Of a DNA stretch of 64,000 nt, positions 6,214 through 27,267 are shown piece after piece; the first letter of the stretch is position 1, and every line of letters starts with the position of its first letter. The position numbers were made by a program, and so were the translations under genes. Under the pieces are notes generated by a model that saw nothing but the letters and a program-made list of their open reading frames with translations, was not told the DNA's origin and searched no databases. This DNA comes from Pseudothioclava arenosa (GTDB taxonomy: Bacteria; Pseudomonadota; Alphaproteobacteria; Rhodobacterales; Rhodobacteraceae). The stretch spans positions 186,001 through 250,000 of the forward strand of contig NZ_NTJD01000003.1 in NCBI RefSeq assembly GCF_002358085.1. Direction: 5' to 3'.

Positions 6214-6268
6214 CGCCCTTGCGCCACCGCTTGCGCAGACCCATTTCCGCCTGTATCTCGGCAGCGAG

Positions 6269-6344
6269 GCCGGCGTAGCTCAGTTGGTAGAGCGTCTGAT
6301 TTGTAATCAGGGGGTCGGGGGTTCGAGTCCCTCCGCCGGCACCA
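6269..6344 (+). tRNA. tRNA-Thr (anticodon TGT)
   Basis: 76-nt cloverleaf with acceptor GCCGGCG paired to CGCCGGC, discriminator A and encoded CCA. The D arm is GCTC-AGTTGGTA-GAGC. The anticodon stem TCTGA/TCAGG encloses the loop TTTGTAA (anticodon TGT). The T arm contains GGTTCGAGTCC. All stems pair. Confidence 0.97.
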
Positions 6345-6368
6345 TTCCCCGCGACATCTGCGTTTCGA

Positions 6369-6382
6369 TTGAGAAAAGTCAA
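6369..6382. promoter_or_regulatory. FNR/DNR-like box upstream of ubiE-menA
   Basis: TTGAG-AAAA-GTCAA has one mismatch from the TTGAC/T-N4-GTCAA dyad. Its centre is about 71 bp upstream of the ubiE/menG start at 6447, close to the distance seen for nirS, norC and nirE. Confidence 0.45.
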
Positions 6383-6446
6383 AGCTCGCGGCATCTTGGC
6401 GGTGCTAGCTCGCGGCAAGGCGGTTTGGCCTCATCCTGGGAATTCG

Positions 6447-7199: not shown

Positions 7200-8092
7200 C
7201 TGGACAAAGCCTTGCACAGACCCGAGAGCGGTTGGCGGCGCTGCCGCGACTGGCTTTGTGGATTATCGCGGCGCGGTTCAAGACGGTGAGCCTGTCGCTG
7301 ATGCCGGTGCTGGCGGCGGGCTGGCTGGCGGCGGGGCAGGGCGGGTTTCGGCCTGATGTGATGCTCGCGGCGATGCTGGCGGCCAGCGCGATTCAGGTCG
7401 GCACGAACCTGTGGAACGATGCGGCCGATGCGGCGCGCGGCGTGGACCGTGACGACCGGCTCGGGCCGCCGCGGATGACGGCGCTCGGGCTTCTGGACGG
7501 GGCGCAGGTGCGCCGCGCGGCCTTGGCGGCCTTTGGCGCGGCGGTGCTGGCGGGGCTGTATCTGGTGGCTCTGGGCGGCTGGCCGATCGTGGCAATCGGG
7601 CTCATGTCGCTGTTGCTTGGCTACCTTTATTCGATGGGCCCCTATCCGATGTCGGGCCTGCCCTTCGGCGAGGTTCTGGTGATCGCTTTCTTCGGCTTTG
7701 TCGCGGTTTCGGCCACGGCCTGGCTGCAGGGTGTCGACCCGATGGCGGGGCGCACGCTTTTGACGGGGGCGATGATCGGCTTTCCGGCGGCGGCGGTGCT
7801 GTTGCTGAACAATCACCGCGACCGCGCGCAGGACGAACGTGCGGGGCGGCGCACCCTGGCCATCGTGATCGGCGAGCGGGCCTCGAAACTTCTCTATTTT
7901 GCGTTCCTGTTGGCGGCCTGCGGCTTTGCCGCGCTGATCGCGCCGAGCCTGTGGCTGGCACTGCCGGTGGGGCTGGTGCTCTGGCTCGGGCACGCGATGT
8001 GGCATTGGCAGATTTCGGCGAAACTCAACCGGTTGCTGGCACAGACTGCCGGGGCCCAGATGCTTCTGGTGCTTGCGGTGGTTCTGGCCTGA
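7196..8092 (+). CDS. menA: MenA-like 1,4-dihydroxy-2-naphthoate prenyltransferase
   Basis: A 298-residue UbiA-superfamily membrane prenyltransferase with about eight hydrophobic segments. The first Asp-rich motif is NLWNDAADAARGVDRDDRLGP (D75, D78 region), matching the MenA form NxxNDYxDxxxGxD-R-GP. The second is NNHRDRAQDERAGRRTLA (D209, D213), matching the MenA NNxRDxxxDxxxGKxTLA motif better than that of UbiA. It would attach the polyprenyl tail to DHNA at the membrane. No men or mqn ring-synthesis genes lie nearby. A terminator follows. The MenA call rests on motif style; a different UbiA-family prenyltransferase is less likely. Confidence 0.8.
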   Translation: MTGQSLAQTRERLAALPRLALWIIAARFKTVSLSLMPVLAAGWLAAGQGGFRPDVMLAAMLAASAIQVGTNLWNDAADAARGVDRDDRLGPPRMTALGLLDGAQVRRAALAAFGAAVLAGLYLVALGGWPIVAIGLMSLLLGYLYSMGPYPMSGLPFGEVLVIAFFGFVAVSATAWLQGVDPMAGRTLLTGAMIGFPAAAVLLLNNHRDRAQDERAGRRTLAIVIGERASKLLYFAFLLAACGFAALIAPSLWLALPVGLVLWLGHAMWHWQISAKLNRLLAQTAGAQMLLVLAVVLA

Positions 8093-8112
8093 TCGTCCCC
8101 GGAACGATCAGG

Positions 8113-8147
8113 AAAAAAGGCCGCCGGTTTCCCGGCGGCCTTTCTTT
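8113..8147. terminator. Bidirectional terminator between menA and the PCuAC gene
   Basis: The inverted repeat AAAGGCCGCCGG/CCGGCGGCCTTT has an A-run before and a T-run after it, so it can terminate both converging transcripts (menA ending at 8092, PCuAC gene ending at 8170). Confidence 0.85.
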
Positions 8148-8169
8148 TCGGGCGATGATGTGGGGACGC

Positions 8170-8631
8170 TTACTTCATCGCACCAGCAGATTTGACCGGC
8201 AGTGAGACCTCGATCTCGCCGGCCTTTTCGAAAATCAGGGTCACCGGGACGTTATCGCCTTCGGCGAGGGGCGCGGTGAGGTCGATGAACATCAAGTGCA
8301 GCCCGCCCGGCTCCAGCACGGCCTCGCCACCGGCGGGCACCTCGATCGCCTCGACCTGCCGCATCCGCATCATGCCGTTGTCCATGACATGGGTGTGCAG
8401 CTCGGGGCGGGCGCAGGCGGGCGAGCGGAACCCGATGAGGCGGTCGGCCTCGCCCTTCGAGCGGATCGTCACAAAGCCCGCGCCGATCTTGGCCGCACCC
8501 GGCGATGCGCGCAGGAAACCGCCCGAAATTTCGAGCGGGGCACCCTCTGCCCGGGCCGTGTGCAAGGGCAGGGCGAGGCTCAATCCGGTTGCCGCAAGGG
8601 CAGCCAGCACGGACCGGCGAGAGATCATCAT
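8170..8631 (-). CDS. PCu(A)C periplasmic copper chaperone with twin-arginine leader
   Basis: The 153-residue protein starts MMISRRSVLAALAATGLSLAL and ends its leader at about ALPLHTARA. SRRSVLA resembles a Tat signal. The mature domain has the PCuAC pattern: ELHTHVMDNGMMRMRQVEAIEV, then GGLHLMFIDL, supplying the His/Met copper(I) ligands (H-x-M...M...H-x-M type). These periplasmic proteins deliver Cu(I) to CuA and CuB centres, usually with Sco. The start at 8631 has AGGAG about 7 nt upstream. It is divergent from nosZ and shares the DNR-type box at 8696-8709, so delivery of copper to NosZ (whose CuA resembles that of oxidases) is a reasonable inference. Confidence 0.88.
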   Translation of the reverse strand: MMISRRSVLAALAATGLSLALPLHTARAEGAPLEISGGFLRASPGAAKIGAGFVTIRSKGEADRLIGFRSPACARPELHTHVMDNGMMRMRQVEAIEVPAGGEAVLEPGGLHLMFIDLTAPLAEGDNVPVTLIFEKAGEIEVSLPVKSAGAMK

Positions 8632-8695
8632 CGGGGCTCCTGATGCTTGGAAAGACAGTGTTTTTGGACCGTTACGGTATTTGCACATTCGGGCC

Positions 8696-8709
8696 TTAAC
8701 ATTTGTCAA
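8696..8709. promoter_or_regulatory. NNR/DNR-type box in the PCuAC-nosZ divergent promoter
   Basis: TTAAC-ATTT-GTCAA matches the NNR-box form found at denitrification promoters of Paracoccus. The centre is about 71 bp from the PCuAC start (8631) and about 104 bp from the nosZ start (8807), so one site may serve both directions. Confidence 0.7.
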
Positions 8710-8806
8710 GGCCGCGCTCTCATTCGCGTGAGAGGTAGGCTGTGCGCAGATTCTGGACCGCCTGCGCTTCCGGGATTCTCATGCGGTCTAAAAACGAGGG
8801 CAAACA

Positions 8807-11092
8807 ATGGTCAAGACCATTCAAAAAGGCCTGCTGGCGACGACGGCTTTCGTCGGACTCAGCGCGGCTCTGGGTGCTTCCGCCGAAACGCTTGACGACG
8901 TCATGGCGCGGCGCGGGCTGACCCAGCAAGACCTGGTCGCCGCGGCGAAAACCTATACGCCGACCGGCGGACGTGACGAGTTCATCGTCTTCTCCTCGGG
9001 CGGTCAGTCGGGCCAGATCATGGTCTACGGCGTTCCGTCGATGCGGATTCTGAAATATGTGTCGGTGTTCACGCCCGAACCGTGGCAAGGCTACGGCTTC
9101 GACGAGGAATCGAAGGCGATCCTGGAAGCTGGCAAGGTGGACGGCCGCGAGCTGCACTGGGGCGACACCCACCACCCGGCGATCACCGAAACCAACGGTG
9201 ACCTGGACGGCGAATACCTGTTCATCAACGACAAATCGGCGCCGCGCGTCGGCGTGATCTCGCTGCATGACTTCGAGACCCAGCAGATCGTCGTGAACCC
9301 GATCCTGCAATCCGAGCACGGCGGCACCTTCGTGACCCCGAACTCGGAATACGTGATCGAAGCCGCGCAATATCCGGGCGTTCTGGGCCGTGGCTACGCG
9401 CCGCTGTCGCAGTTCAACGAGAAATTCCGCGGTGCTGTCACCTACTGGAAGTTCGACCGCGAAGCCGGGCGCATCGACCCGTCGAAATCCTTCTCGCTCG
9501 AACTGCCGCCCTATTCGCAGGACTTGTCGGACGCGGGTAAACTCGTGTCGGACGGCTGGTCGTTCACCAACTCCTTCTGCGCCGAACGTTATGTCGGCGG
9601 GATCGAGTCGGGCCGCCCGCCCTTCGAGGCCGGCTGCTCGCAGAACGACACCGACTATCTGCACATCATCAACTGGCGGAAAGCCGAAGAGGTCTACAAG
9701 GCCGGCAAGGTTACCATGATCAATGACCACCCGGTCATCACCATGGAAACCGCGATTGCCGAAGGTCTCGTGCATCTCGTGGCAGAACCGAAATCGCCGC
9801 ACGGCGTCGATGTGTCGCCCGATGGCAAATTCATCGTGGTCGGCGGCAAGCTCGACACCCAGGCTTCGGTCTACTCGTTCGAGAAAATCCAGAAGGCAAT
9901 CGAAGAGAAGAAATTCTCGGGCGTTGACCCCTACGGTATCCCGGTCATCGCGATGGAAGACGCGCTGCACACTCAAGTGCCGCTGGGCCTCGGCCCGCTG
10001 CACAACCAGTTCGACAGCAAGCCTTGCGTCGTCTACACCTCGCTCTACGTGGACAGCCAAGTGGCGAAATGGGACTATTGCGAAGGCAAGGTCCTCGACA
10101 AGATTTCGATCCACTACAACATCGGCCACCTCGTTGCGATGGAAGGCGAGTCGGTTAACCCGGCTGGTAAATACCTGATCTCGCTCAACAAGCTGGCGAT
10201 TGACCGGTTCAACCCCGTGGGTCCGCTGCACCCGCAGAACCACCAGCTGATCGACATCTCGGGCGACAAGATGGAGCTCCTCTACGATATGCCGGTGCCG
10301 CTGGGCGAACCCCACTACGCCACCGCCATCGCGGCCGAGAAGCTCAAGCCGCTGGTCCGTTACAAATACGGCACCAACTCGCGCACCGGTGAGCGCCACG
10401 AAGGCGCGGTGCGTCCGGGTCAGGAGCGCATCGAGCGTGACGGCACGAACGTCAAGGTCTACATGACCGCGATCCGTTCGCACTTCACCCCGGAAATCGT
10501 GGAAGTGAACGAAGGCGATACCGTCGAGTTCATCATCACCAACTCCGAGCGTGCCGAAGACGAAACCCACGGCTTCTCGGTTTCGACCTATGACGTGAAC
10601 CTCTCGCTGGAACCCGGCAAGACGGCGACCGCCAAGATCGTGGCTGACAAGCCCGGCGCCTTCTCGTTCTACTGCACCGAGTTCTGCTCGGCGCTGCACC
10701 TCGAGATGACCGGCTACCTCATGGTCAAGCCGAAAGGCTATGTCGAAGAAGAGGGTGCGGTCAGCGAAGGCCAGGCCTACAGCAAGGAAGATTACGACCG
10801 GCAGACCGCGAACAACGTGGCCACGCAGGAAGTGATCGACTCGGTTGTGGTCTATATCACCGAGCGTAACTACGCCGACTTCCCCGAAGTCGTCGCTCTG
10901 GTGGAAGACGCGACCGACCAGCTGAACTTCGCGGCTGACGCGAAGGCCAAGGCCGAGGCCGCCGCCGCCAGCGAAGACTGGCAGAACGCGACCCTCTGGG
11001 CCGGTCAGTGGTGGCAGTACCAGGTCAAAGCCGCGGACATCGGTCTGCGCGCCAAGACCTTCCTCGACGAGCATGGCGCTGTGAAGAAATAA
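8807..11092 (+). CDS. nosZ: Nitrous oxide reductase, clade II (Sec-exported) type
   Basis: The 761-residue enzyme reduces N2O to N2 in the periplasm. The leader MVKTIQKGLLATTAFVGLSAALGASA has no twin-arginine and looks Sec-type, unlike classical clade I NosZ. A seven-bladed propeller follows, with CuZ ligands including DTHHP (H122, H123) and SEHGG (H171). The CuA cupredoxin domain carries CTEFCSALHLEM (about C623, C627, H631, M634). Residues 646-761 form an extra helical, Ala/Glu-rich C-terminal extension with no CxxCH. GAGGG precedes the ATG. Downstream genes (cytochromes, nosB, nosD, nosG, nosH, nosF, nosL, nosY) follow the clade II pattern, and no nosR or nosX is present. Control is probably by the box at 8696. 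Confidence 0.97.
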   Translation: MVKTIQKGLLATTAFVGLSAALGASAETLDDVMARRGLTQQDLVAAAKTYTPTGGRDEFIVFSSGGQSGQIMVYGVPSMRILKYVSVFTPEPWQGYGFDEESKAILEAGKVDGRELHWGDTHHPAITETNGDLDGEYLFINDKSAPRVGVISLHDFETQQIVVNPILQSEHGGTFVTPNSEYVIEAAQYPGVLGRGYAPLSQFNEKFRGAVTYWKFDREAGRIDPSKSFSLELPPYSQDLSDAGKLVSDGWSFTNSFCAERYVGGIESGRPPFEAGCSQNDTDYLHIINWRKAEEVYKAGKVTMINDHPVITMETAIAEGLVHLVAEPKSPHGVDVSPDGKFIVVGGKLDTQASVYSFEKIQKAIEEKKFSGVDPYGIPVIAMEDALHTQVPLGLGPLHNQFDSKPCVVYTSLYVDSQVAKWDYCEGKVLDKISIHYNIGHLVAMEGESVNPAGKYLISLNKLAIDRFNPVGPLHPQNHQLIDISGDKMELLYDMPVPLGEPHYATAIAAEKLKPLVRYKYGTNSRTGERHEGAVRPGQERIERDGTNVKVYMTAIRSHFTPEIVEVNEGDTVEFIITNSERAEDETHGFSVSTYDVNLSLEPGKTATAKIVADKPGAFSFYCTEFCSALHLEMTGYLMVKPKGYVEEEGAVSEGQAYSKEDYDRQTANNVATQEVIDSVVVYITERNYADFPEVVALVEDATDQLNFAADAKAKAEAAAASEDWQNATLWAGQWWQYQVKAADIGLRAKTFLDEHGAVKK

Positions 11093-11099
11093 GCGCCTT

Positions 11100-11127
11100 G
11101 GTGGCGGCGGCTCCGGCCGCCGCCACT
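11100..11127 (+). other. Stem-loop in the nosZ-cytochrome intergenic region
   Basis: A perfect 11-bp GC-rich stem (GTGGCGGCGGC with GCCGCCGCCAC) closes a TCCG tetraloop 8 bp after the nosZ stop. No T-run follows, so it looks like an mRNA 3'-protecting or processing structure and not a terminator. Confidence 0.6.
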
Positions 11128-11168
11128 AACCCTCTGAACATATTCAAACATTCGCAAGGAAACGCGAC

Positions 11169-11819
11169 ATGCGCCCGATCCTGAAAAGCCTTTTCGCCGC
11201 TGCGCTGGCGCTGACCACGCTGCCCGCCTTCGCCGACGATATCGCGGATGGCAAGAAGGTCTACATGACGAAGTCCTGCATGGCCTGCCACGGCATGAAG
11301 GGCGCCAAGCCCGTGCTGAGCTATCCGATGCTCGCCGGTCAGAATGAAAAATACCTGCTGCAGCAGCTGAAAGACATCAAGGCTGGCAAGCGCCTCGGCA
11401 CGGTCGATCCGGCCAATAACGCGCCCTATGTGCAGGGCATGGTCGACATCATGCACCTTGTCGATGAAAACGACCTGAAGAAGGTTGCGAAATACCTGGC
11501 CTCGCTGCCGCCGGGCGCCCCCAAGCCCGTCGATCCGCCGCATGATCCGGCGCTGGTCGAAGCCGGCGAGAAGGCCTTCAACAGCCTCGGCTGCAAATCC
11601 TGTCATGGCGTCGAGGGCAAGAAACCCACCGCCAAGAACTACCCCTTTATCGCGGGCCTGAATGCCGAATACCTGGCCCGCGCCATGACCGAGATGCGCG
11701 ACAAGGTCCGCGTCAATGGCCAGTCCAAGCTGATGTTCGGCACCATCAAGAAAGCCAAGGACGAAGATATCACCGCGATCGCCGCGTGGCTCTCGCAGAT
11801 CGACCGTTCCGCTGAGTGA
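11169..11819 (+). CDS. Dihaem cytochrome c (c4-like) of the nos cluster
   Basis: A 216-residue periplasmic protein with a Sec leader (MRPILKSLFAAALALTTLPAFA). It contains two cytochrome c domains, each with a haem motif: CMACHG near residue 38 and CKSCHG near residue 142. The repeated GQN/GLNAEYLxxxM pattern is cytochrome c4-like. By position it corresponds to the NosC-type cytochromes of clade II nos clusters and probably passes electrons to NosZ; those of Wolinella are monohaem, so the dihaem form is a difference. It is followed immediately by a second dihaem cytochrome. It could also receive electrons from the bc1 complex. Confidence 0.88.
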   Translation: MRPILKSLFAAALALTTLPAFADDIADGKKVYMTKSCMACHGMKGAKPVLSYPMLAGQNEKYLLQQLKDIKAGKRLGTVDPANNAPYVQGMVDIMHLVDENDLKKVAKYLASLPPGAPKPVDPPHDPALVEAGEKAFNSLGCKSCHGVEGKKPTAKNYPFIAGLNAEYLARAMTEMRDKVRVNGQSKLMFGTIKKAKDEDITAIAAWLSQIDRSAE

Positions 11820-11836
11820 CGAAAGGAAACGTCTTC

Positions 11837-12547
11837 ATGAAAACCCATCTTCTCTCTGCTGCCCTGATCGCGCTGGCGCTGCCGGCGTTGGCTGCGGGCA
11901 CTGTCGATACCTCGTCCTGGAACCAGGGCGGTGGCGAACAGGACGAGGCGCTGCACCTGACCCCGAACCACGAAAACGGGATCGAGGTCTATGAGGTCTG
12001 CTCGGCCTGCCACCAGCTCAATGGCTGGGGCCTCGACGACGGCACCTTCCCGCAGATCGCCGGGCAGCACTACAACGTCATCATCAAGCAGCTCGCCGAT
12101 ATCCGCGCGCTGAACCGCGACAACCCGACGATGTACCCGTTCGCGTTGCCGTCGGAAATCGGTGGTTCGCAGTCGATCGCGGACGTGGCCGAGTATATCT
12201 CGAACCTGCCTATGAATCCGAACCCGGGCCTTGGTGCGGGCGATGACCTTGAACACGGCGCGCAGCTTTACAAAGACAACTGCGTGCGCTGCCATGGCGA
12301 GAATGGCGAAGGCGACAACGAAAAGTTCTATCCGCGCATCCATGGCCAGCACTACAACTACCTCGTGCGCCAGTATCAGTGGATCAAGGAAGGCAAGCGC
12401 CGCAACGCCAACCCCGACATGGTGCAGCAGATCCAGACCTTCACCGAGCGTGATACGCTGGCGGTTCTGGACTATGTGTCGCGGCTGAAGCCGCCGGCGG
12501 AGATGGTGGCCGACCCGGATTGGGTCAACCCCGATTTCGACTGGTAA
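11837..12547 (+). CDS. Second dihaem cytochrome c of the nos cluster
   Basis: A 236-residue protein with leader MKTHLLSAALIALALPALAAG. Haem motifs CSACHQ (about residue 55) and CVRCHG (about residue 153) lie in two similar halves, each with GQHYNxxxxQ, so the protein arose by duplication of a cytochrome c4-type unit. I chose the ATG at 11837, with AAAGGAAA upstream, over a GTG at 11816 that would overlap the previous stop. It probably forms an electron-delivery pair with the preceding cytochrome. The C-terminus is acidic and aromatic (DPDWVNPDFDW). Confidence 0.87.
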   Translation: MKTHLLSAALIALALPALAAGTVDTSSWNQGGGEQDEALHLTPNHENGIEVYEVCSACHQLNGWGLDDGTFPQIAGQHYNVIIKQLADIRALNRDNPTMYPFALPSEIGGSQSIADVAEYISNLPMNPNPGLGAGDDLEHGAQLYKDNCVRCHGENGEGDNEKFYPRIHGQHYNYLVRQYQWIKEGKRRNANPDMVQQIQTFTERDTLAVLDYVSRLKPPAEMVADPDWVNPDFDW

Positions 12548-12558
12548 GAACGACCCGG

Positions 12559-12583
12559 CCGGGGGGCGCGGATCGCCCCCCGG
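12559..12583 (+). other. Stem-loop between the second cytochrome gene and nosB
   Basis: The inverted repeat CCGGGGGGCG/CGCCCCCCGG has a 5-nt loop and no T-run after it. It is a likely mRNA segmental-stability hairpin. Confidence 0.5.
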
Positions 12584-12614
12584 TCATCCAACATAAGCCG
12601 AAGGACCTCACCCC

Positions 12615-13802
12615 ATGGCTCAGGCTGCCTCTGACAAGCGTGGTATCGTTTACCGCGTCCTGACCCTTATTTCCGTTTGCCTCATTGCCGCTTCCTTCTT
12701 CAGCCCCGGCTGGTGGGTGTCGCTGACCGCGCCCAACTACCCGGAAGCGACCTTCCCGCAGGGGATCCGCATCCTGTTCCACATGGACTCGGTCCGGAAC
12801 GGCTGCACTATCCGCACCAGCGAAGAGGTCGAGGAAAACGAAGCCCTCGATTGCGTCCACGAGATGGACACGATCAACCACTATGTCGGCATGTACCCGA
12901 TCGCCTCGGGCGGCCCGGTCGAAAAGGCCTTCTCGCCCTTCCTCTTCGCGATGATGGGAGTGATGCTGCTGGCCTTCGCCGCGCCCGGTCGCAGCGCGCG
13001 CATCGGTGTGTCGGTCGTCGGTTACGGCGCGATCGCGGTCTGGATGTGGATGGCGATGTATGGCGAGAACGGGATTTCCAAGCACACGACCGGATATCTG
13101 AGCGGGCTGGTGGTTTCGCTCGGGCAGGACAGTAAGGAGAAGGTCGACGATTCAAACCTCTCGCCGATCGTGAAGATGCTCAAGCAGTCGCTGGCCGAAA
13201 GCGAAGAGGCCGAGAAACCGGCCGCCGCCGAGGGGGCGGGCGATGACAAGCTTGCGCTGATCGACAACCTGCGTGCCAACTACAATATCGACAATAACAA
13301 GCTCCCCGCCGATCAGCAGGAAGAGTGGACCGGCTCGGTGATGCAGGTGTTTAAGTGGCACTATGCCAAGTCGCTCGCGCGCTGGTTCAACGAGCCCGAG
13401 CGCAATGATCCGCTGGTGGCCACGATGTCCTCGATCGCGCAGATCCTGTTCGTCGTGATCCTGGCCTTCATGGCGTTGATGATCTTTGCCGCCTTCTCGG
13501 CGCGTTCGGTCTTCTACTGGCTGCTGGTGATCGTGCCGCTGGCGCTGCCGGTGGGCTTCCTCGCGGAATATGCGGGCTGGCTCTGGTGGTATGGCCACAG
13601 CCTGAACGAGATGGGGGCCTTTACGCTGAAGCCCTTCATGCCGACCGTGTTCGGCGACGGGAAAGTGGCGCAGTTCACCACGCACTCCTATCCGGCGCAG
13701 GGCTTCTTCCTTATGCTCGCCTCCTCGGCGGTGCTGGCGCTGGCCGCGCTGATCCGCTTCAAGCAGATCCGGCTTGCCGGGGATGCGGCGAGCAAGATGT
13801 GA
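12615..13802 (+). CDS. nosB: NosB-like membrane protein
   Basis: A 395-residue protein with about six hydrophobic segments: one near residues 13-33, two around 105-145, and three between about 275 and 390. A periplasmic loop near the N-terminus contains two Cys (GCTIRT and DCVHEM), and a long charged loop lies in the middle. Position between nosZ/cytochromes and nosD, and topology, match NosB, a membrane protein found only in clade II clusters. There it has been proposed to help electron transfer or assembly, but its function is not established. No haem or Fe-S motif is visible. Confidence 0.75.
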   Translation: MAQAASDKRGIVYRVLTLISVCLIAASFFSPGWWVSLTAPNYPEATFPQGIRILFHMDSVRNGCTIRTSEEVEENEALDCVHEMDTINHYVGMYPIASGGPVEKAFSPFLFAMMGVMLLAFAAPGRSARIGVSVVGYGAIAVWMWMAMYGENGISKHTTGYLSGLVVSLGQDSKEKVDDSNLSPIVKMLKQSLAESEEAEKPAAAEGAGDDKLALIDNLRANYNIDNNKLPADQQEEWTGSVMQVFKWHYAKSLARWFNEPERNDPLVATMSSIAQILFVVILAFMALMIFAAFSARSVFYWLLVIVPLALPVGFLAEYAGWLWWYGHSLNEMGAFTLKPFMPTVFGDGKVAQFTTHSYPAQGFFLMLASSAVLALAALIRFKQIRLAGDAASKM

Positions 13803-13811
13803 GCCTGACCC

Positions 13812-15101
13812 ATGCGTGCCCTTGTTGCAGCCCTCGTGCTTTGCCTCGCCGTCTTCGGCGGGGCCGCCATGGCCGAGACCTTGCAGGAGATGATCGACGC
13901 CGCCCCTGATGGCGCCGAGATCGACATCTCCGGTCAGGTCTTTGCCGGGCCGATCGTGATCCGTCGTCCGGTTGTTCTGGATGGCAAGGGCACGGGCGTG
14001 ATCGACGGCCATGGCGAGGGCACGATCGTCACCATCGAGAGTAACGGCGTCACGCTGAAAGACCTGACGATCCGCAACTCGGGGCGGCTGCATAACAAGG
14101 TCGATGCCGGGTTGCGCATCAAGAGCAGCTACAACGTGATCCGCGACGTGCGCATCGAGAACAGCTTGTTCGGGATCGACCTCACGCAGGCCAATAACAA
14201 CGTGCTGCGGCGCAACTACATCAGCTCCAAGGACATGCCTTTGGAGCTGCGCGGCGATAGCGTGCGGATCTGGTATTCGAACGACAATATCTTCGAGCAT
14301 AACCACATCGAGCACAGCCGCGATTTCGTGATCTGGTATTCGGGCGGAAATCACATCCGCAACAACCGCATCCAGCACGGTCGCTATGGCATCCACTTCA
14401 TGTATGCCCATGAGAATTTCGTCGAAGAGAACGAGATTTCCGACTGCGTCGTGGGCGTGTTCCTGATGTATGCCAATGACATCAAGGTCCGCGGCAACCA
14501 GATTCTGCGCGCCTGGGGCGCATCGGGGATGGGCGTGGGCTTCAAGGAGACCTCGGGCGCGGTGGTCGAGGACAACCTGATCCTCGGCAATGCGGTGGGC
14601 ATCTACCTCGATCCGTCGCCCTGGGACCCGGACAAGACCAACGAGTTCCACCGCAACCAGATCGCCTATAACGGCATCGGGATGGAGTTCCACACCGACT
14701 GGGTGGGCAACAATATCTCGAATAACAACTTCCTGTCGAACTTCACCCAGGTCTCGGTGCGCGGGCGTGGCACGGCGCTGCGCGAGGGCTGGCACGGCAA
14801 TTACTGGGACGATGCCGCCGGTTTCGACCGCGACGCGGACGGGATCAACGACGCGCCCTATGAAATCTACAATTACGCCGACCGGCTCTGGATGGACCTG
14901 CCGCCGGCCTCGTTCTTCCGCGGTGGGCTTGCGCTTTCGGCGCTCGATTTCGTCGAACGCCTCGCGCCCTTCACCGAGCCGCGCCTTCTGGTGCGCGAGG
15001 AAGCCCCCTTTGCCCATCCCGTCGATCACGCCGCTGCGCGCCTCGAGACCGCCGAGCAGGGCGCCAAACCGAAATCCGCACTGGAGCTGCTGACCCAATG
15101 A
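13812..15101 (+). CDS. nosD: NosD periplasmic copper-maturation protein
   Basis: The 429-residue protein has a leader (MRALVAALVLCLAVFGGAAMA) and then many imperfect right-handed beta-helix repeats (N-x-I/V-x-x-N steps, about residues 70-320). A conserved NosD tail includes GNYWDDAAGFDRDADGINDAPY. NosD works with the NosFY ABC transporter in building the CuZ site of NosZ. It overlaps nosG by 4 bp (ATGA). Length and repeats match the family. Confidence 0.95.
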   Translation: MRALVAALVLCLAVFGGAAMAETLQEMIDAAPDGAEIDISGQVFAGPIVIRRPVVLDGKGTGVIDGHGEGTIVTIESNGVTLKDLTIRNSGRLHNKVDAGLRIKSSYNVIRDVRIENSLFGIDLTQANNNVLRRNYISSKDMPLELRGDSVRIWYSNDNIFEHNHIEHSRDFVIWYSGGNHIRNNRIQHGRYGIHFMYAHENFVEENEISDCVVGVFLMYANDIKVRGNQILRAWGASGMGVGFKETSGAVVEDNLILGNAVGIYLDPSPWDPDKTNEFHRNQIAYNGIGMEFHTDWVGNNISNNNFLSNFTQVSVRGRGTALREGWHGNYWDDAAGFDRDADGINDAPYEIYNYADRLWMDLPPASFFRGGLALSALDFVERLAPFTEPRLLVREEAPFAHPVDHAAARLETAEQGAKPKSALELLTQ

Positions 15102-15880
15102 CAGACGGTTCTGACACCCCGAAACCCGCCGCCGCCCCGAAAAAGCGGCTGACCCGGCGCGAGCTGGAGCGCCGCCGCCTGCTGATCCGCAGCTTCGGCC
15201 TTGGCATCGCCGCCGTCACGGCCGGCCTGGTCGGCTGGTACCCGGTCTACAAACGCCTCTTCGACCGGCTGCGCCCGCCGGGCGCGCTGGACGAGCGCGA
15301 ATTCCTCGCGGCCTGCATCAAATGCGGCCAATGCGTTCAGGTCTGCCCGGTTGAGGCGATCAAGCTTGCCGATGGCGACGAAGGCTATGGCTTGGGCGTG
15401 CCCTATATCGACGCGCGCGCGCAGGCCTGCGATTTTTCCTGTGACGCGGTGCAATGCGTGCTGGCCTGCCCGACGGGCGCGCTCAGCCACGAGATCGCCC
15501 ATAAGGAAGAGGTCACGATGGGCTTTGCCCGCCTCTCGCGCCCGGAAAGCTGCCTTGCGATGAAGGGCGAGGGCTTCAAGGGGCTGGCGCGGGGCTATGA
15601 CTTCGAGGGCCTGCTGCGCTACGAGGAAATCGACCGCTGGGACCCGCAGCCGGTGGCCTCCTATCCCTACGATCTCGAAATCTGCGACCTTTGCGTGCGC
15701 GAATGCCCGATCAAGGGCGCGATCAGCCTTGAGCCGATGTCGGACGATCCGGCCGACAAGCGCCGCATCCCGGTCGTGCACGAGGCCTGCGTCGGCTGCG
15801 GCACCTGCGAAATGATCTGCCCGACCGAACCCGCCTCGATCATCATCGACACCGAACTGACGCTGGAGGCACAGGCATGA
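15098..15880 (+). CDS. nosG: NosG ferredoxin (NapG-like, multiple 4Fe-4S)
   Basis: The 260-residue protein has one membrane or signal segment (about residues 31-47) preceded by many basic residues (KKRLTRRELERRRLLIRSF). Four cysteine clusters suited to 4Fe-4S centres follow: CIKCGQCVQVCP, CDFSCDAVQCVLACP, CDLCVRECP and CVGCGTCEMICP. This is the NapG/NosG pattern. With NosH it is thought to form a quinol-oxidising route feeding periplasmic cytochromes or NosZ in clade II organisms. Translational coupling exists on both sides (4-bp overlaps with nosD and nosH). Confidence 0.9.
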   Translation: MTDGSDTPKPAAAPKKRLTRRELERRRLLIRSFGLGIAAVTAGLVGWYPVYKRLFDRLRPPGALDEREFLAACIKCGQCVQVCPVEAIKLADGDEGYGLGVPYIDARAQACDFSCDAVQCVLACPTGALSHEIAHKEEVTMGFARLSRPESCLAMKGEGFKGLARGYDFEGLLRYEEIDRWDPQPVASYPYDLEICDLCVRECPIKGAISLEPMSDDPADKRRIPVVHEACVGCGTCEMICPTEPASIIIDTELTLEAQA

Positions 15881-16854
15881 AGTGGTTTCTGCACAAGCTG
15901 GCGATGATGTTCGGGGCCGAGGGGCGCAAGGCCTCCGCGTCCGAAGAGACCGAAGCCGCGCGCGAGATGAAGAAATTCAAGAAGACGCCCGAGCAGGTCA
16001 TCAAGCGCAAGGAAATCATCGACCACGAGCATCAATACCCGCTGGTCAGCAACAAGTGGCGCAACCTGCGCTGGCTCTCGATCATCGTGATCAACGCGAT
16101 GTTCATCGTGTCGTTTGCCTGGGACGTGCAGTTGGTTGAAGGCTCGATGTCGGCGTCGCGCTTCCTCGGGTTCCACATGGCGGACCCGAACGCGGCGCTG
16201 CAGGTCTTCCTGGCGTTCAAGGAGCTGGTGCTGAACCTCGTGATCGGCACGGTGACGGTGGTCTTGCTGTGGTGGATCGTTGGCGGGCGCGCCTTTTGCA
16301 GCTGGGCCTGCCCCTATCACCTGCTGGCCGAATGGGCCGAGGCGATCCACCTGTTCCTCGCCCGCAAGGGCTGGGTCAAGGATCACCCGTTCCATCGCGG
16401 GCTGCGCGTGGTGCTCTGGGTGATCTTCATGGCGCTGGCCTTTCTGTCGGGCTACACGGTGTTCGAATATATCAACCCGGTGGGCATCGTCAGCCGCGCG
16501 CTGATCTACGGGCCGACGGTGGCGCTGGTCTGGGTGATTTTCCTGCTCGGCTTCGAGATCTTTTTCTCGCGTCGGTTCTGGTGCCGTTATGTCTGCCCGA
16601 TCGGGCTGACCTATGGCATCACCGGGGCGGTGGCGCCGGTGCAGATCAAGTATGACCTCGAGAAATGCGTTCACGAAGGCGAGTGCCGGGCGGTTTGTCT
16701 GGTGCCCCATGTTCTGGAAATCACCAAGATGGGCTATGCTTCGGATACGACTGAATATATCGGTCCCGACTGCACCCGCTGCGGGCTTTGTGTCGACGCT
16801 TGCCCGCAAGAGGCGCTGACCTTCACCGTTCGCGGTCTCGACAAGATCATCTGA
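15877..16854 (+). CDS. nosH: NosH (NapH-like) membrane ferredoxin
   Basis: The 325-residue protein has about four membrane segments (residues about 65-85, 110-135, 185-205, 215-235). Two conserved CxxxCP motifs (CSWACP and CRYVCP) are followed by two C-terminal 4Fe-4S-like clusters (CVHEGECRAVCLVP and CTRCGLCVDACP). The NapH/NosH family works with NapG/NosG in quinol oxidation, and the CxxxCP motifs are essential in NapH. The N-terminal 60 residues are a charged cytoplasmic stretch. The role in electron supply to NosZ is inferred from family and position. Confidence 0.9.
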   Translation: MKWFLHKLAMMFGAEGRKASASEETEAAREMKKFKKTPEQVIKRKEIIDHEHQYPLVSNKWRNLRWLSIIVINAMFIVSFAWDVQLVEGSMSASRFLGFHMADPNAALQVFLAFKELVLNLVIGTVTVVLLWWIVGGRAFCSWACPYHLLAEWAEAIHLFLARKGWVKDHPFHRGLRVVLWVIFMALAFLSGYTVFEYINPVGIVSRALIYGPTVALVWVIFLLGFEIFFSRRFWCRYVCPIGLTYGITGAVAPVQIKYDLEKCVHEGECRAVCLVPHVLEITKMGYASDTTEYIGPDCTRCGLCVDACPQEALTFTVRGLDKII

Positions 16855-16863
16855 GGAGCCATC

Positions 16864-17739
16864 ATGATCACCATCGACCGCCTGTCCAAGCGCTTCGACC
16901 GCCGCGCGGTGCTCGACGAGCTGACGCTCTCGATCGACGCGGGCGATCGCATCGCGCTGATCGGCTCGAACGGGGCGGGCAAGACGACGCTGTTTCGCTG
17001 CCTTCTGGGCCATTACGGCCACGAGGGGCGCGTGGGGTTCGACGGCAGCGCGGGCCAGCGCCGCGATGCGGGCGCGCTGGCGCGGGTGGCCTTTGTGCCG
17101 CAATTGCCGCCGCCCCTGCGGATGCCCGTTGGCGAATTGCTGACCTTTGCCGAGAAGGGCGCGGGCGCCGACCCGGCCTTGATGCGCGACATCGCGGGCA
17201 AGATGGGCATCGACCTCGACGAGGTAAAGAAACGCCCCTTCTACCGGCTCTCGGGCGGGCAGAAGCAAAAGATCCTGGTGACCGTGGCGCTCGGGCGCAA
17301 TGCCGATCTGATGATCTTCGACGAGCCTTCGGCCAACCTCGACCCGGCGGCGCGGGCGGTGTTCATCGACCTTCTGGCCGCGCGCACCGATGCCTCGATG
17401 CTGATCGCCTCGCACCGGCTCGAAGAGGTGGCGCCGCTGGTGAACCGTGTGATCGAGATGGATCGTGGCCGCGTGGTGCTGGACGATTCCGTGGCCGACC
17501 GGCTGCGCGCGGGCGATTTCCGCCGCGCCGAGATCGAGATTTCCGCCCCGCACGAGCCTTTCGCGCGCGCGCTCGAAGGCTGGGGCTTTGTCACCGATGC
17601 GTCGGGGCTGCGCTTCAGCGGCCCGGTGCCCGCCGCCGAGACCTTCCGCTTCCTCGGCGTTCTCGCGCGTCACGGCAGCCTGATCGAGCGGCTTTCGCTT
17701 GAAGAAGTGCCCCAGGCCGCGCCCGAAAAGGTCAACTGA
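16864..17739 (+). CDS. nosF: NosF ABC transporter ATP-binding protein
   Basis: The 291-residue ATPase has Walker A GSNGAGKTTL, a Q-loop near FVPQLPPP, signature LSGGQKQK, Walker B LMIFDEPSANLDP, and a switch His in ASHRLEE. It pairs with the membrane protein NosY to supply a sulfur species or copper-site building block to NosD in the periplasm. AGGAG precedes the ATG. nosL begins 1 bp after its stop. Confidence 0.95.
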   Translation: MITIDRLSKRFDRRAVLDELTLSIDAGDRIALIGSNGAGKTTLFRCLLGHYGHEGRVGFDGSAGQRRDAGALARVAFVPQLPPPLRMPVGELLTFAEKGAGADPALMRDIAGKMGIDLDEVKKRPFYRLSGGQKQKILVTVALGRNADLMIFDEPSANLDPAARAVFIDLLAARTDASMLIASHRLEEVAPLVNRVIEMDRGRVVLDDSVADRLRAGDFRRAEIEISAPHEPFARALEGWGFVTDASGLRFSGPVPAAETFRFLGVLARHGSLIERLSLEEVPQAAPEKVN

Positions 17740-17740
17740 G

Positions 17741-18232
17741 ATGTGCTGTCGCTGCCCTCATCCCAACCGTCGCCAGACCCTGGTGCTTTTGGCCGGGGCG
17801 CCGTTACTGGCGGCGTGCAAGCCGCAGAACGAGGGCCCCGAGGATATCCGCTGGGGCCGCGAGACCTGCGCGATCTGCGGCATGATCATCTCGGACCCGC
17901 ATTACGCCGCCGAGATCCGCGGCGGCACCGACAAGCACCTGTCGAAATTCGACGATATCGGCGATGCGATCATCTGGCTCGAGGCGCAGGACTGGAAGGA
18001 CGATCCGGCGATCGAATTCTGGGTGCGCGATTACGATACCGGCACGAAATGGCTCGATGCGCGCAAGGTTTTTTACCGCGGCGGCATGGTGACGCCGATG
18101 GATTACGGCTTTGCCGCGGTCGAGCTGCCGGCCTCGGATACGGTTGGTTACGACGACATGAGAATTGCGGTCATCAAGCACGGGCTCACGCTCGGTTGCT
18201 TGCAGGGCGCCGAATACGAGCAGTATAGATGA
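17741..18232 (+). CDS. nosL: NosL outer-membrane copper chaperone lipoprotein
   Basis: A 163-residue lipoprotein. A leader with RRQTLVLLAGAPLLAAC gives a lipobox ending in LAAC. The conserved CAICGMII motif follows, the NosL Cu(I)-binding region, with FDDIGD and conserved Met residues later. NosL delivers Cu(I) to apo-NosZ. The start lies 1 bp after the nosF stop, and its end overlaps nosY (ATGA). The leader begins with an unusual Cys-rich stretch (MCCRCPHP). Confidence 0.93.
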   Translation: MCCRCPHPNRRQTLVLLAGAPLLAACKPQNEGPEDIRWGRETCAICGMIISDPHYAAEIRGGTDKHLSKFDDIGDAIIWLEAQDWKDDPAIEFWVRDYDTGTKWLDARKVFYRGGMVTPMDYGFAAVELPASDTVGYDDMRIAVIKHGLTLGCLQGAEYEQYR

Positions 18233-19134
18233 ACGCCATGAGCTCTGATCCCCTGTTTCCCCAAGGCGGCGACCGTATCGCCGCGCGCAAGAGCGGCGCT
18301 GTGCCGCGCACCGGGCTTGGCCTCGTGATGCGCCTCGAACTCTCCGAGAGCCTGCGCTCGCGCTGGTTCCATTTCTATTCGATTGTGGTGGTGGGGCTGA
18401 TGCTGTTGCTGATCACCACCGGGATTTCCGAAAGCCGCGTGCTGGGGTTCACCGGCCTGTCGCGGCTTCTGGTGACCTATATCCAGATCGCGATGGCGGT
18501 GCTGCCCCTGTTCATCGTGGTCTCGACGGCGCGCTCGATGGTGGGCGACCGCGAGGCGGGCAACCTCGAATACATGTTGTCCTTCCCGGTCACGCTGCGG
18601 GTCTGGTATTGGGGACGCTTCCTTGCGCGCCTCGTGCTGGTGCTGTCGCCGGTGCTGCTGGCGCTGGGGCTTGCGGCGGTCTACGGGCTGGTGCGCGGCC
18701 ATAGCGTGCCCTGGTGGCATTTCGGGCTTTATTCGGGGCTGGTCGCGGCGCTTGCGGCCTGTTTCCTCGGCATCGGCTTCCTCGTGTCCTCGATTTCGCG
18801 CTCGACCGAGGTGGCGCTGGGGGCGAGCCTGTTGATCTGGCTGACGTTGGTTGCGCTTCTGGACCTGCTGTTGCTGGCGATCCTGATCCAGCAGCATTTC
18901 ATCCCCGAGTTCGTGATCGGCATCGCGCTCGCGAACCCGCTCCAGGCCTTCCGCACGGCTTCAATGATCCTGTTTGACCCGCAGCTGATCCTGCTCGGCC
19001 CGGCGTCCTACGTGATCCTCGATCACTTCGGGGTCACCGGCTATGTCGCTTGGGCGATGGCCTATCCGACGGCGCTGGGGCTGGTTCTGGCGGCGCTTGG
19101 CTACTGGCGGTTCTCGCGCACCGATCTGGTCTGA
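18229..19134 (+). CDS. nosY: NosY ABC transporter permease
   Basis: A 301-residue inner-membrane protein of the ABC-2 type with six hydrophobic segments, preceded by a cytoplasmic N-terminus. The sequence STARSMVGDREAGNLEYMLSFP is the typical NosY/ABC-2 loop after the second segment. It is the partner of NosF. It is the last gene of the nosZ transcription unit, and a terminator follows. The start could also be the Met at 18238. Confidence 0.93.
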   Translation: MNAMSSDPLFPQGGDRIAARKSGAVPRTGLGLVMRLELSESLRSRWFHFYSIVVVGLMLLLITTGISESRVLGFTGLSRLLVTYIQIAMAVLPLFIVVSTARSMVGDREAGNLEYMLSFPVTLRVWYWGRFLARLVLVLSPVLLALGLAAVYGLVRGHSVPWWHFGLYSGLVAALAACFLGIGFLVSSISRSTEVALGASLLIWLTLVALLDLLLLAILIQQHFIPEFVIGIALANPLQAFRTASMILFDPQLILLGPASYVILDHFGVTGYVAWAMAYPTALGLVLAALGYWRFSRTDLV

Positions 19135-19152
19135 GGCCACGCGCCTGATGTC

Positions 19153-19184
19153 GAAAGGCCGCCCCGAGGGGCGGCCTTTTCGTT
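19153..19184. terminator. Terminator between nosY and the tlpA-like gene
   Basis: AAAGGCCGCCCC-GA-GGGGCGGCCTTTT forms a perfect stem with T-runs usable in both directions. It closes the nos operon and the convergent sco-tlpA unit. Confidence 0.88.
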
Positions 19185-19206
19185 TGATCCGGGGCAGGGC
19201 AGGGGT

Positions 19207-19749
19207 TCAGAGGCTCAGCAGCCATTCCTGCGTCGGCTCGTCGTCCCAATGCGCTTCGCCCTCGATCAGCGCCAGCGTCTGGCCCGCGCGATCCAGGATC
19301 ACCGTCGTCGGCAGGTTTTCGATGCCGAGCGTCGCATTCAGGTTGTCGCCATCGCCAATCAGGATCGGCAGATGCGCGATCTCGGTCTCGCGGTAGAAGC
19401 GCCGCACGCCCGAGGCGCCGCGCCAGTCGAAGGCCAGCGGCAGGACCGTGACGCCCTTGCCATCAAGCGCCGTCGCAAGCCGCGCCAGCGAGGGCATCTC
19501 GCGCCGGCAAGGCACGCACCACGGCCCCCAGAGGTTCAGAACGACGATCTGCCCGGCATAGTCGGAGAGGCTGCGCGGCGTGCCATCGGCATCGACCATC
19601 TGCAGCGGCGTCGCATCGCGCGATGGCGCGGCCGTGCGCGCAAGTGTTGCGGCCGAAGGGGCGAAATGCGTGTCGGCCCGCGCAAGCCCGGGCACGAGCA
19701 TCGCCGCGCCAAGGCCGGTCAGAAATTGACGCCGCTCGATCAGGCTCAC
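19207..19749 (-). CDS. TlpA-like periplasmic thioredoxin
   Basis: The 180-residue protein has a twin-arginine-like leader (MSLIERRQFLTGLGAAMLVPGLARA) and a thioredoxin fold with active site WCVPC (C78, C81) after VVLNLWGPW. A later cis-Pro region reads IENLPTTVILD. TlpA/DsbE-like proteins reduce Cys pairs in apo-Sco, CuA sites or apocytochromes c. It overlaps the sco gene by 4 bp, so it is the second gene of that unit. The likely role is to keep the CuA or Sco cysteines reduced for copper loading. Confidence 0.87.
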   Translation of the reverse strand: MSLIERRQFLTGLGAAMLVPGLARADTHFAPSAATLARTAAPSRDATPLQMVDADGTPRSLSDYAGQIVVLNLWGPWCVPCRREMPSLARLATALDGKGVTVLPLAFDWRGASGVRRFYRETEIAHLPILIGDGDNLNATLGIENLPTTVILDRAGQTLALIEGEAHWDDEPTQEWLLSL

Positions 19750-20366
19750 TGCATCGCCTCGGTCATGATCTTGTCCATGTCCGCCGCAATCGCCTCGGCC
19801 GAGGTGCCGTGCGGATAGCGCTTGATCAGGAAGCCGCCCGGATCGAGGAAGGCGATCGAGGCGGTGTGGTCGATCGAGTAGAGATCGGGCTGGTTCGGGT
19901 CAGGGATGTGCTTTTCGTAGCGCGCGTTGAAGGCCTTGACCATGTGGTCGGTATAGGCCACCGGCCCGCGCAGCCCGACGATCCGCGGATCGAAGAATTC
20001 GAGGTAGTCGCGCATCAGCTTGGCGGTGTCGCGATCAGGGTCGACCGACACGAAAAGCGGCGCGATGCCCGCGGCTTTCTCTTCGCCCAGACGCTCCAGC
20101 ACCTCGGCCATCGTCGAGAGCGAGGTCGGGCAGACATCGGGGCAGCCGGTATATCCGAAATAGACCAGCACGAATTTGCCCTGGAAATCCTCGTTGGTCA
20201 TGACGTTGCCGTAGAGGTCTTCCATCATGTAGCGGCGCGGCATTTCCTGCCGCACATCCGTCGCCGGATCGGGTTCAAGAGCCGCATGTTGGGCCAGCCC
20301 CAGTCCGGGGGCAGCCATGAGAGAGGCCAGTGCGGCACCGGCCAGAAGAACGCGTCGGGTGAGCAT
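19746..20366 (-). CDS. Sco/SenC-type copper chaperone
   Basis: The 206-residue protein has leader MLTRRVLLAGAALASLMAAPGLGLA, which may use Tat (TRRVLLAG). The thioredoxin-like fold carries the Sco copper motif CPDVCP (C75, C79) and a C-terminal His in YSIDHTASIAFLD. Sco proteins insert copper into CuA centres. In this position the target may be the CuA of NosZ as well as cytochrome oxidase. The start at 20366 was chosen because the leader begins there and AAAGGAC lies upstream. It is transcribed with tlpA, with a DNR-like box about 63 bp upstream. Confidence 0.9.
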   Translation of the reverse strand: MLTRRVLLAGAALASLMAAPGLGLAQHAALEPDPATDVRQEMPRRYMMEDLYGNVMTNEDFQGKFVLVYFGYTGCPDVCPTSLSTMAEVLERLGEEKAAGIAPLFVSVDPDRDTAKLMRDYLEFFDPRIVGLRGPVAYTDHMVKAFNARYEKHIPDPNQPDLYSIDHTASIAFLDPGGFLIKRYPHGTSAEAIAADMDKIMTEAMQ

Positions 20367-20422
20367 GGTCGTCCTTTCAGCAGTGTTTGATCGCAACCTA
20401 GGACTGCGAAGTTGCGCAAGCC

Positions 20423-20436
20423 TTGACTTTGATCAG
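20423..20436. promoter_or_regulatory. FNR/DNR-like box between sco and the BASS transporter
   Basis: TTGAC-TTTG-ATCAG has one mismatch from the dyad. The centre is about 63 bp from the sco start (minus strand) and about 70 bp from the transporter start at 20500, so it could serve either. Confidence 0.5.
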
Positions 20437-20499
20437 GGCGGGCGCAAGAGGCGAACGGCAACTCTCTCCGGAACGTGTTCAGAACTCAGGGGAATTGGG

Positions 20500-21366
20500 A
20501 TGGCTGGCTTTCTGGCGGCGTTTCTGCCGGTCGCGATGATGGTGCTGATGTTCTCGCTCGGGCTGCGCCTGCGGTTGGGCGAGATCGTCGGCGAATTGCG
20601 CGCGCCCAAGGCGCTGGGACTGGGGCTGATGGTGCAGATGCTCGGCCTGCCGGTGCTGGCCTTCGGGGTGGCGCGGGCGATCGGGCTCGACCCGATGCTG
20701 ACTGCGGGGCTGATGCTGGTCGCGGCATCGCCGGGGGGGGTGACCTCGAATTACGCGGCGCATCTGGCGCGGGGCTCGATCGGGTTGTCGGTGGCGATGA
20801 CGCTGGTGACGAGCCTCCTGGCGCCGGTCACGCTGCCCCTCGTGCTGGTCGCTTCGGGCGTCAGCGCGCCTGAGCCTGCCGGGCTGCTCAAGATCTCGCT
20901 CGGGATGAGCGCGGTTGCGGTGGCGCCGATGGCGCTGGGGATGGTGCTGGCGCGCTATCTGCCGCGCCTTGCCACGCCGCTCGCGCGGGGGGTGGACCCG
21001 CTGGCGAAGCTTCTGTTCCTCGCCATGGTGATCGCGACCTTCGTGCAGAACTGGGGCGCGATGCAGGGCGCGGTGAGCGATGTTGGCGGTGCGGTTCTGG
21101 TGCTGGCGCTCTTGGGCCCGGCTCTGGCCTTTGCTGTGGCGCGTCTGGGGCGGCTGGACGGCACGCGGCTGCGCACCGTGATGACCGAAGCCGCGTTGCA
21201 GAACGTCGCGATCACGATCTTCGTCGCCAGCCAGTTGCTGGGCCAGCCCGAGCTTGCGATCCCCGGCCTGATCTACGCGGTTCTGATGAACTTCGTGGCG
21301 CTCCTGATCATCGGCTCGGCCGCGCTTGGCGGTACGCGCGAGGCGGTTCCCGCGCCGCGCTCCTGA
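20500..21366 (+). CDS. BASS-family (bile acid:sodium symporter-like) transporter
   Basis: The 288-residue polytopic protein (about nine or ten segments) starts MAGFLAAFLPVAMMVLMFSLGLRLRL. It has the family-type stretch LMLVAASPGGVTSNYAAHLARG followed by SVAMTLVTSLLAPVTLPL. BASS proteins are Na+-coupled importers or exporters of organic anions; the substrate is unknown. The ATG at 20500 has CAGGGG upstream and begins directly with a membrane helix. It is placed between sco and the DNR-like regulator, and an intrinsic terminator follows. Confidence 0.85.
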   Translation: MAGFLAAFLPVAMMVLMFSLGLRLRLGEIVGELRAPKALGLGLMVQMLGLPVLAFGVARAIGLDPMLTAGLMLVAASPGGVTSNYAAHLARGSIGLSVAMTLVTSLLAPVTLPLVLVASGVSAPEPAGLLKISLGMSAVAVAPMALGMVLARYLPRLATPLARGVDPLAKLLFLAMVIATFVQNWGAMQGAVSDVGGAVLVLALLGPALAFAVARLGRLDGTRLRTVMTEAALQNVAITIFVASQLLGQPELAIPGLIYAVLMNFVALLIIGSAALGGTREAVPAPRS

Positions 21367-21397
21367 TCCGCGCCGATCTGTCGCAGCGTCGCCATAT

Positions 21398-21430
21398 CCC
21401 GCAGGTTGTGAAACGACCTGCGGGTCTTTT
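21398..21430 (+). terminator. Terminator after the BASS transporter gene
   Basis: The stem CCCGCAGGT/ACCTGCGGG with a 9-nt loop is followed by TCTTTT, 32 bp after the stop at 21366. Confidence 0.85.
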
Positions 21431-21475
21431 GCCTGCCCGGGAAATGTGAAAGAGTCCCCCGGATCGGAGGGATGA

Positions 21476-25822: not shown

Positions 25823-25848
25823 CCTGTTTGTCCTTTCGTCTTGCTGGC

Positions 25849-27246: not shown

Positions 27247-27267
27247 GGTTCTACTCCAGTCCTTGCC

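Follow-up and report, generated by a model that had tools for sequence, protein, structure and literature searches.

The 64,000-nucleotide stretch of Pseudothioclava arenosa DNA analysed here (the window; positions 186001-250000 of contig C19 in the 2.79-Mb genome G000) carries a nos gene cluster for nitrous oxide (N2O) reduction. The cluster is of the clade II type. A ubiE/menG gene and menA lie directly upstream of it, and a transporter gene of the sodium/bile acid symporter family (BASS) lies downstream. The linkage of menaquinone-finishing genes with clade II nos is well supported. We consider it somewhat probable that the whole is a clade II nos island equipped with a menaquinone-finishing cassette of its own, for which 1,4-dihydroxy-2-naphthoate (DHNA) would be imported. 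The clade II cluster itself is already a known kind; the new part is the menaquinone-finishing cassette with its candidate precursor importer. An earlier note on this DNA placed the nos cluster at 8807-19134, a span that holds the nos genes and cuts off menA/menG and the transporter, which make the island unusual. The features are listed below, with profile scores and cut-offs in brackets. Gene lists were obtained with a crude caller based on third-position GC (GC3) and with tblastn.

6369-6382, + strand: FNR/DNR-like box with one mismatch, before ubiE/menG (pattern scan)
6369-7199, + strand: ubiE/menG, second copy in the genome; likely start ATG 6447, after the box (TIGR01934, 228.8 > 158.35)
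7196-8092, + strand: menA, 1,4-dihydroxy-2-naphthoate prenyltransferase (TIGR00751, 120.2 > 102.15, equivalog cut-off)
8170-8709, - strand: PCu(A)C copper chaperone, divergent from nosZ (PF04314, 125.6 > 29.4)
8696-8709, + strand: FNR/DNR-like box with one mismatch, before nosZ (pattern scan)
8807-11092, + strand: nosZ, clade II, Sec-type (profile scores, tree, leader read from the sequence)
11169-11819, + strand: cytochrome c with two CxxCH motifs, c1 (PF00034; motifs read)
11816-12547, + strand: cytochrome c with two CxxCH motifs, c2 (PF00034; motifs read)
12615-13802, + strand: putative nosB (position and synteny; no family match)
13812-15101, + strand: nosD (TIGR04247, 388.2 > 300)
15098-15880, + strand: nosG, NapG-like ferredoxin (TIGR00397, NapG/MauM, 135.6 < 178.85, below cut-off)
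15877-16854, + strand: nosH, NapH-like ferredoxin (TIGR02163, NapH/MauN, 240.3 > 213.05)
16864-17739, + strand: nosF, ABC ATPase (PF00005, 76.4 > 25)
17699-18232, + strand: putative nosL (position and synteny; no family match)
18229-19134, + strand: nosY, ABC permease (PF12679, 76.6 > 27.2)
19207-19749, - strand: TlpA/ResA-like thioredoxin (PF00578, 54.7 > 26)
19746-20396, - strand: SCO1/SenC copper protein (PF02630, 133.6 > 22.8)
20423-20436, + strand: FNR/DNR-like box with one mismatch, between SCO and BASS (pattern scan)
20317-21366, + strand: BASS transporter, candidate DHNA importer; likely start 20500 (PF01758, 89.1 > 24.3)
21476-22177, + strand: Crp/Fnr-family regulator, DNR-like (PF00027 and PF13545, over cut-off)

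The association of menaquinone genes with clade II nos was examined in compared genomes (G-numbers) and loci (L-numbers). Clade II NosZ was counted in 292 genomes of the family and MenA in 295. These were different draws, so the co-occurrence counts cover only genomes positive for MenA or for clade II NosZ. MenA was present in 7 of the 295 genomes: five with clade II NosZ, one (G435) with a clade I-type NosZ, and one (G474) without NosZ. G164 and G245, found via NosZ in another draw, likewise have MenA. In all seven clade II family genomes (G000, G305, G164, G245, G294, G340, and G462; G305 is the congener by kinship), MenA is next to nosZ and BASS follows nosY; UbiE, MenA, SCO, TlpA, and BASS are present in 7/7, and PCu(A)C in 6/7. 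Among 31 named MenA loci, UbiE-MenA precedes clade II nosZ in 17, five of which are family genomes counted above. The earlier note had proposed a synteny comparison in relatives; together with G000 and G294, the same clade II cluster, its nosZ immediately preceded by ubiE-menA, is shared by 19 loci of Alphaproteobacteria.

The remaining named loci show the same genes in other settings. In the stretches examined, MenA-BASS stands without nos in L110, L114, and L120, and UbiE-MenA-BASS without nos in L115, L127, and L128. BASS recurs beside MenA in several families. The MenA-BASS pair of L120 (A. subalbicans) adjoins narGH, and narGH of G474 was confirmed by profile. L116 has UbiE-MenA where the contig ends, and L103, L107, L112, L126, and L129 carry MenA without linked UbiE, BASS, or nos in the stretch examined. 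In G637, from another alphaproteobacterial family, UbiE-MenA-BASS lies about 7 kb beyond nosY. Upstream pathway genes also appear near nos. G721, another alphaproteobacterium, carries menC, menB, menD, menF, and menE beside nosZ (menB, menD, and isochorismate synthase over cut-offs, menC and menE below), and MenA was not seen in the stretches examined. In G794, which belongs to another class, the nos cluster is accompanied by MenA, UbiE, menD, and isochorismate synthase (the last two over cut-offs) and by menE-like and menC-like genes below cut-offs; menB was not seen among them. Neither G721 nor G794 showed BASS near nos.

Three side observations concern these loci. The G794 locus (L184) holds two nosZ genes of equal score, 4.7 kb apart; identical duplicate nosZ genes are described for two N2O-reducing bioreactor bacteria in the part of PMC10390337 available. 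In Aliiroseovarius crassostreae (L200, L201), ubiE-menA and a partial PCu(A)C match are followed by clade I nos, as if a clade II cluster had been exchanged in place. In Tropicimonas (L112), Rhodobium (L124), and a Rhodobiaceae metagenome-assembled genome (MAG; L126), MenA lies among genes that look photosynthesis- or carotenoid-like by eye, and menaquinone might there serve the reaction centre.

The DHNA-making half of the pathway was sought in nine genomes. None had menB over the cut-off (best 149 against 342.7 bits), and none had MqnA/D. The window genome combines menA and menG with no menB over the cut-off and no MqnA/D, in a search that did not extend genome-wide to menD, menF, menC, and menE. 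Among the 30 genomes behind the named MenA loci, several of which are MAGs of uncertain completeness, only Rhodobium orientis had menB over the cut-off (418 bits); there menF (isochorismate synthase), menD, and menB are consecutive, and all three exceed their cut-offs. Thalassobius vesicularis gave a near miss at 317 bits, perhaps a BadI-like enzyme, and the remaining genomes reached at most 149 bits. With neither menB nor MqnA/D found, the DHNA has to be supplied from outside or by an undescribed route.

The nos-linked UbiE is not the housekeeping methyltransferase. Two UbiE proteins over the cut-off were found in 14 of 16 genomes, and the housekeeping copy of the window genome lies on contig C21. 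In a tree of 39 of 46 distinct UbiE sequences (L081, L084, L099, L105, L111, L116, and L137 omitted), 16 housekeeping and 23 second copies were separated by one 100/100 branch. Identity of the nos-linked gene with the housekeeping copy was rejected on these two grounds. The second-copy group includes the extra UbiE of R. orientis and the UbiE of the G794 men region. G435 and G474 have MenA-BASS without linked UbiE and a single UbiE each; a bifunctional housekeeping UbiE could serve there.

The aspartate-rich motifs of MenA are invariant among nine sequences, and UBIAD1 was the only solved relative found by profile. A MenA tree was built from 32 of 35 distinct sequences, with fragments L105, L116, and L129 left out. 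MenA on plasmids amounted to a single weak match, in Thermomicrobium. Solved relatives of BASS were found (best E 1.2e-23). The BASS tree had 20 rows, with most inner branches lacking a support mark; in it, MenA-linked BASS proteins do not form one exclusive group, because the R. orientis protein nests inside.

Control of the island was examined with the pattern TTGAY-N4-RTCAA, allowing at most one mismatch; gene starts were approximate and chance rates came from single-base shuffles. The window holds 13 boxes against 2.77 expected. Seven of them precede ubiE, nosZ/PCuAC, SCO/BASS, norC, nirS/nnrS (two), and nirE; the other six are elsewhere, some intragenic. In relatives, boxes were found before nosZ in 7/7 (0.2 expected), BASS in 6/9 (0.06 expected), and ubiE in 8/22 (0.18 expected). 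The integration into DNR-type control supposed in the earlier note is thus supported by the FNR/DNR-like boxes predicted before nosZ in all seven family genomes. Promoter-like sites (5 against 2.6 expected) and terminator-like sites (15 against 10.8) in 6200-21500 were not clearly above chance; one long stem lies 3' of the BASS gene at 21398-21424.

The clade II identity of NosZ was confirmed in several ways. The protein passed the Sec-dependent model TIGR04246 (865.1 bits, cut-off 625) and did not pass the TAT-dependent model TIGR04244 (390.9 bits, cut-off 625). Its leader, read from the sequence, is of the Sec type without a twin arginine (RR). No corrected start could add a Tat leader: the reading frame begins five codons 5' of the ATG, and no RR occurs in the leader. 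In a tree of 38 of 62 distinct NosZ sequences, made by a quick method, the window protein lies among the 27 sequences of clade II; a fully supported branch divides these from the remaining 11, which are of clade I apart from one archaeal TAT-type protein. Several long branches of distant references blur their order and leave this split intact. The earlier note was right on both the clade and the leader. It was also right that clade II is unusual for Rhodobacteraceae: 3 of 292 family genomes passed the cut-off, the window genome counted. A further 93 gave long matches of 377-474 bits, below the clade II cut-off and of the clade I kind, their clade being checked by tree only for sequences placed in the 38-NosZ tree. 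Of 398 genomes drawn from the phylum, 8 passed, G000 counted. The existence of the clade II cluster is confirmed; such clusters are rare but already known.

The order nosZ - c1 - c2 - nosB - nosD - nosG - nosH - nosF - nosL - nosY over 8807-19134 agrees with that claimed before, as judged from open reading frames and profile scores. NosB (12615-13802) and NosL (17699-18232) had no Pfam or NCBIfam match, and their names are provisional, taken from position and conserved synteny with other clade II loci. Neither nosR nor nosX lies inside the cluster, again as claimed. Looking for nosR elsewhere in the genome, as the earlier note suggested, did yield a full-length NosR-like protein on contig C20 (NF046105, 425 bits, below the cut-off of 1000), adjoined by an ApbE protein and away from the nos genes. 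The neighbours of this pair are PQQ-system ABC-transporter and beta-propeller genes. The pair also occurs on plasmids of Paracoccus aestuarii and Gemmobacter fulvus, beside PQQ-dependent alcohol dehydrogenase and pedF; these are the two examined among 208 plasmid records that gave a match, not all of this kind. Because its neighbours belong to a PQQ alcohol dehydrogenase cluster, the pair is no sign of clade I nos, and the idea that nosR/nosX elsewhere undoes the clade II call was rejected. The finding of nosR/nosX, which the earlier note had named as a refutation, was thus made literally, but in a different gene cluster. NosR-like and ApbE proteins appear as a standing pair in such clusters (L035, 9683-12612).

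The earlier note's interpretation, acquisition of a clade II cluster followed by integration into DNR-type control, is partly supported. Recent transfer into the window genome alone was rejected: 19 loci share the arrangement, the window and congener NosZ proteins are 95% identical, the GC3 of the nos genes (0.81-0.87) is similar to that of most other window genes, and the tree agrees. An older transfer of the clade II cluster into the lineage may have occurred.

Around the island, a tRNA-Thr gene (6269-6344) lies just 5' of ubiE-menA-nos. After the nos island, 22474-40555 holds nor, nnrS, and nirS as well as the genes for haem d1 (nirE, F, a DL fusion, G, H, J, and N), and together they make up one long denitrification region. 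Adjoining nirS, 31111-32922 encodes a fusion of a NapC/NirT-type cytochrome with an ethylbenzene-dehydrogenase haem domain (PF03264 and PF09459), with relatives of 58-83% identity in L099, L104, L117, and L125, and of 41% in L194.

Rhodobacteraceae make ubiquinone. The conversion of DHNA to menaquinone by MenA and MenG is established chemistry. In the proposed mechanism, DHNA from neighbouring bacteria would enter via the linked BASS transporter, MenA would prenylate it, and the linked MenG-type UbiE would methylate the MenA product to give menaquinone. Menaquinol would then supply NosZ through NosGH and the two cytochromes c, and FNR/DNR-type control would couple the cassette to nos, nor, and nir. 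BASS is proposed as the DHNA importer because BASS proteins carry many organic anions and because the gene pairs with menA even without nos; it is the gene company that suggests this substrate. For Wolinella, a route from menaquinol is cited in the available part of PMC11102522. A bolder version, which we hold only tentatively, is that BASS is a dedicated DHNA importer, that N2O reduction in these ubiquinone bacteria runs on menaquinol made from neighbours' DHNA, and that an ancestral island with the full men set lost its DHNA-making part, which the importer replaced. Some of that ancestral set would still be visible in G721 and G794.

Several points weigh against the reading of a clade II nos island with a DHNA-fed menaquinone-finishing cassette. 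G879, G628, G647, and G654 have clade II nosZ without MenA in the stretches examined, so clade II NosZ is not always accompanied by linked men genes. R. orientis has menB and also, 6.5 kb from its MenA, a BASS belonging to the same group, so BASS occurs in the presence of menB too. At locus L125 no BASS appears before the contig ends, and A. crassostreae has UbiE-MenA next to clade I nos and lacks BASS within 38 kb. No box precedes 14 of 22 ubiE genes or any of three lone menA genes. Clade II electron routes include bc1-cytochrome c as well as NosGH-NosBC2-NosC1, according to the part of PMC11539149 available, and we only infer that NosGH would need menaquinol. No quinone measurement for these strains was found, and no search aimed at one was made. 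In wider pairs, MenA and UbiE evolve faster than NosZ: between the window genome and its congener, the ratio of nonsynonymous to synonymous substitution rates (dN/dS) is 0.24 for MenA, 0.35 for UbiE, and 0.085 for NosZ, wide pairs being close to saturation.

The best surviving alternative, unlikely but not negligible, is that the cassette makes menaquinone from scavenged DHNA for general anaerobic respiration or redox balance and not for NosZ specifically; its linkage to nos would then follow because denitrification genes cluster. The occurrence of MenA-BASS beside narGH in A. subalbicans, beside nor in L114, and in genomes without clade II nosZ speaks for it, as do the A. crassostreae arrangement and the same type of box before nor and nir genes. 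It accounts less well for genes that flank nos on both sides in all seven clade II family genomes, whatever the position of nor and nir, and for the adjacency of early-pathway men genes to nos in G721 and G794.

A second alternative, which we regard as improbable, has MenA and UbiE acting on another acceptor or on DHNA from an undescribed route, with BASS carrying something else. The breadth of BASS substrates leaves room for it; generic plasmid BASS proteins (32% identity) are about as near as the G637 protein (31%), and the gaps in the search of the window genome for DHNA-making genes also favour it. MenA, however, passes an equivalog cut-off and has UBIAD1 as its sole solved relative by profile, menB over the cut-off and MqnA/D are absent, and BASS recurs beside MenA in several families. 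We regard it as very improbable that the ubiE-menA pair is a functionless relic inherited from an ancestor that had all the men genes. Identities to the congener (MenA 72% and UbiE 61% against 95% for NosZ) and the higher dN/dS of wider pairs speak for this, but in two close pairs dN/dS of MenA (0.056 and 0.078) and UbiE (0.109 and 0.028) is near that of NosZ (0.067 and 0.064), the MenA motifs are invariant, boxes precede ubiE and BASS in several genomes, and the linkage is kept across genera. From the dN/dS comparison, the BASS pair L090-L041 was dropped (an impossible 2.5, probably due to misaligned codons); for one SCO pair no ratio was obtained.

A link between clade II nosZ and menA was not found in the open-access literature searched by title and abstract start, with preprints outside the search, nor in the available parts of PMC11539149, PMC10653820, PMC11102522, and PMC10390337; this is weak evidence of novelty. 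If the menaquinone-finishing cassette does serve NosZ as proposed, N2O reduction would be a greenhouse-gas sink dependent on vitamin-K cross-feeding, and pure-culture tests would underrate such bacteria as N2O sinks if they need neighbours' DHNA. The MenA-BASS pairing offers a concrete candidate for a DHNA importer; among the papers listed in the literature search, none named one. To our knowledge, the reason for the separate clade II electron route (NosG/H, NosB, NosC) is unsettled. The repeated linkage of men genes to clade II nos in a ubiquinone-using family gives a testable answer: the route may want menaquinol.

The clade II nos cluster of Wolinella succinogenes comprises a Sec-type NosZ, NosB, NosD, NosG/H, two cytochromes c, and NosFYL. 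This gene set is common to the window, which adds ubiE-menA before nosZ and BASS after nosY, in a ubiquinone-making family. The clade I nosRZDFYLX clusters of Ruegeria pomeroyi and Rhodobacter capsulatus share N2O reductase and NosD, F, Y, and L with the window; they differ in a TAT-type NosZ, a NosR gene (with ApbE in R. capsulatus), and no men genes annotated in 13-14 kb. Porphyromonas pasteri and Lactiplantibacillus plantarum are not known to use ubiquinone. Both have menA and ubiE/menG without DHNA-making genes, much as the window genome has them without menB over the cut-off or MqnA/D. P. pasteri, a published precedent for the proposed reading, retains the last two men genes, is missing five others, and requires DHNA (PMC9704088); L. 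plantarum uses exogenous DHNA (PMC10746273). They differ in having no nos link, and the available parts of these sources on DHNA use name no DHNA importer. R. orientis, with the full classical pathway, shares with the window MenA and, as its second UbiE, a MenG-type protein from the same clade; it differs in possessing menF, menD, and menB, whereas the window genome has no menB over the cut-off.

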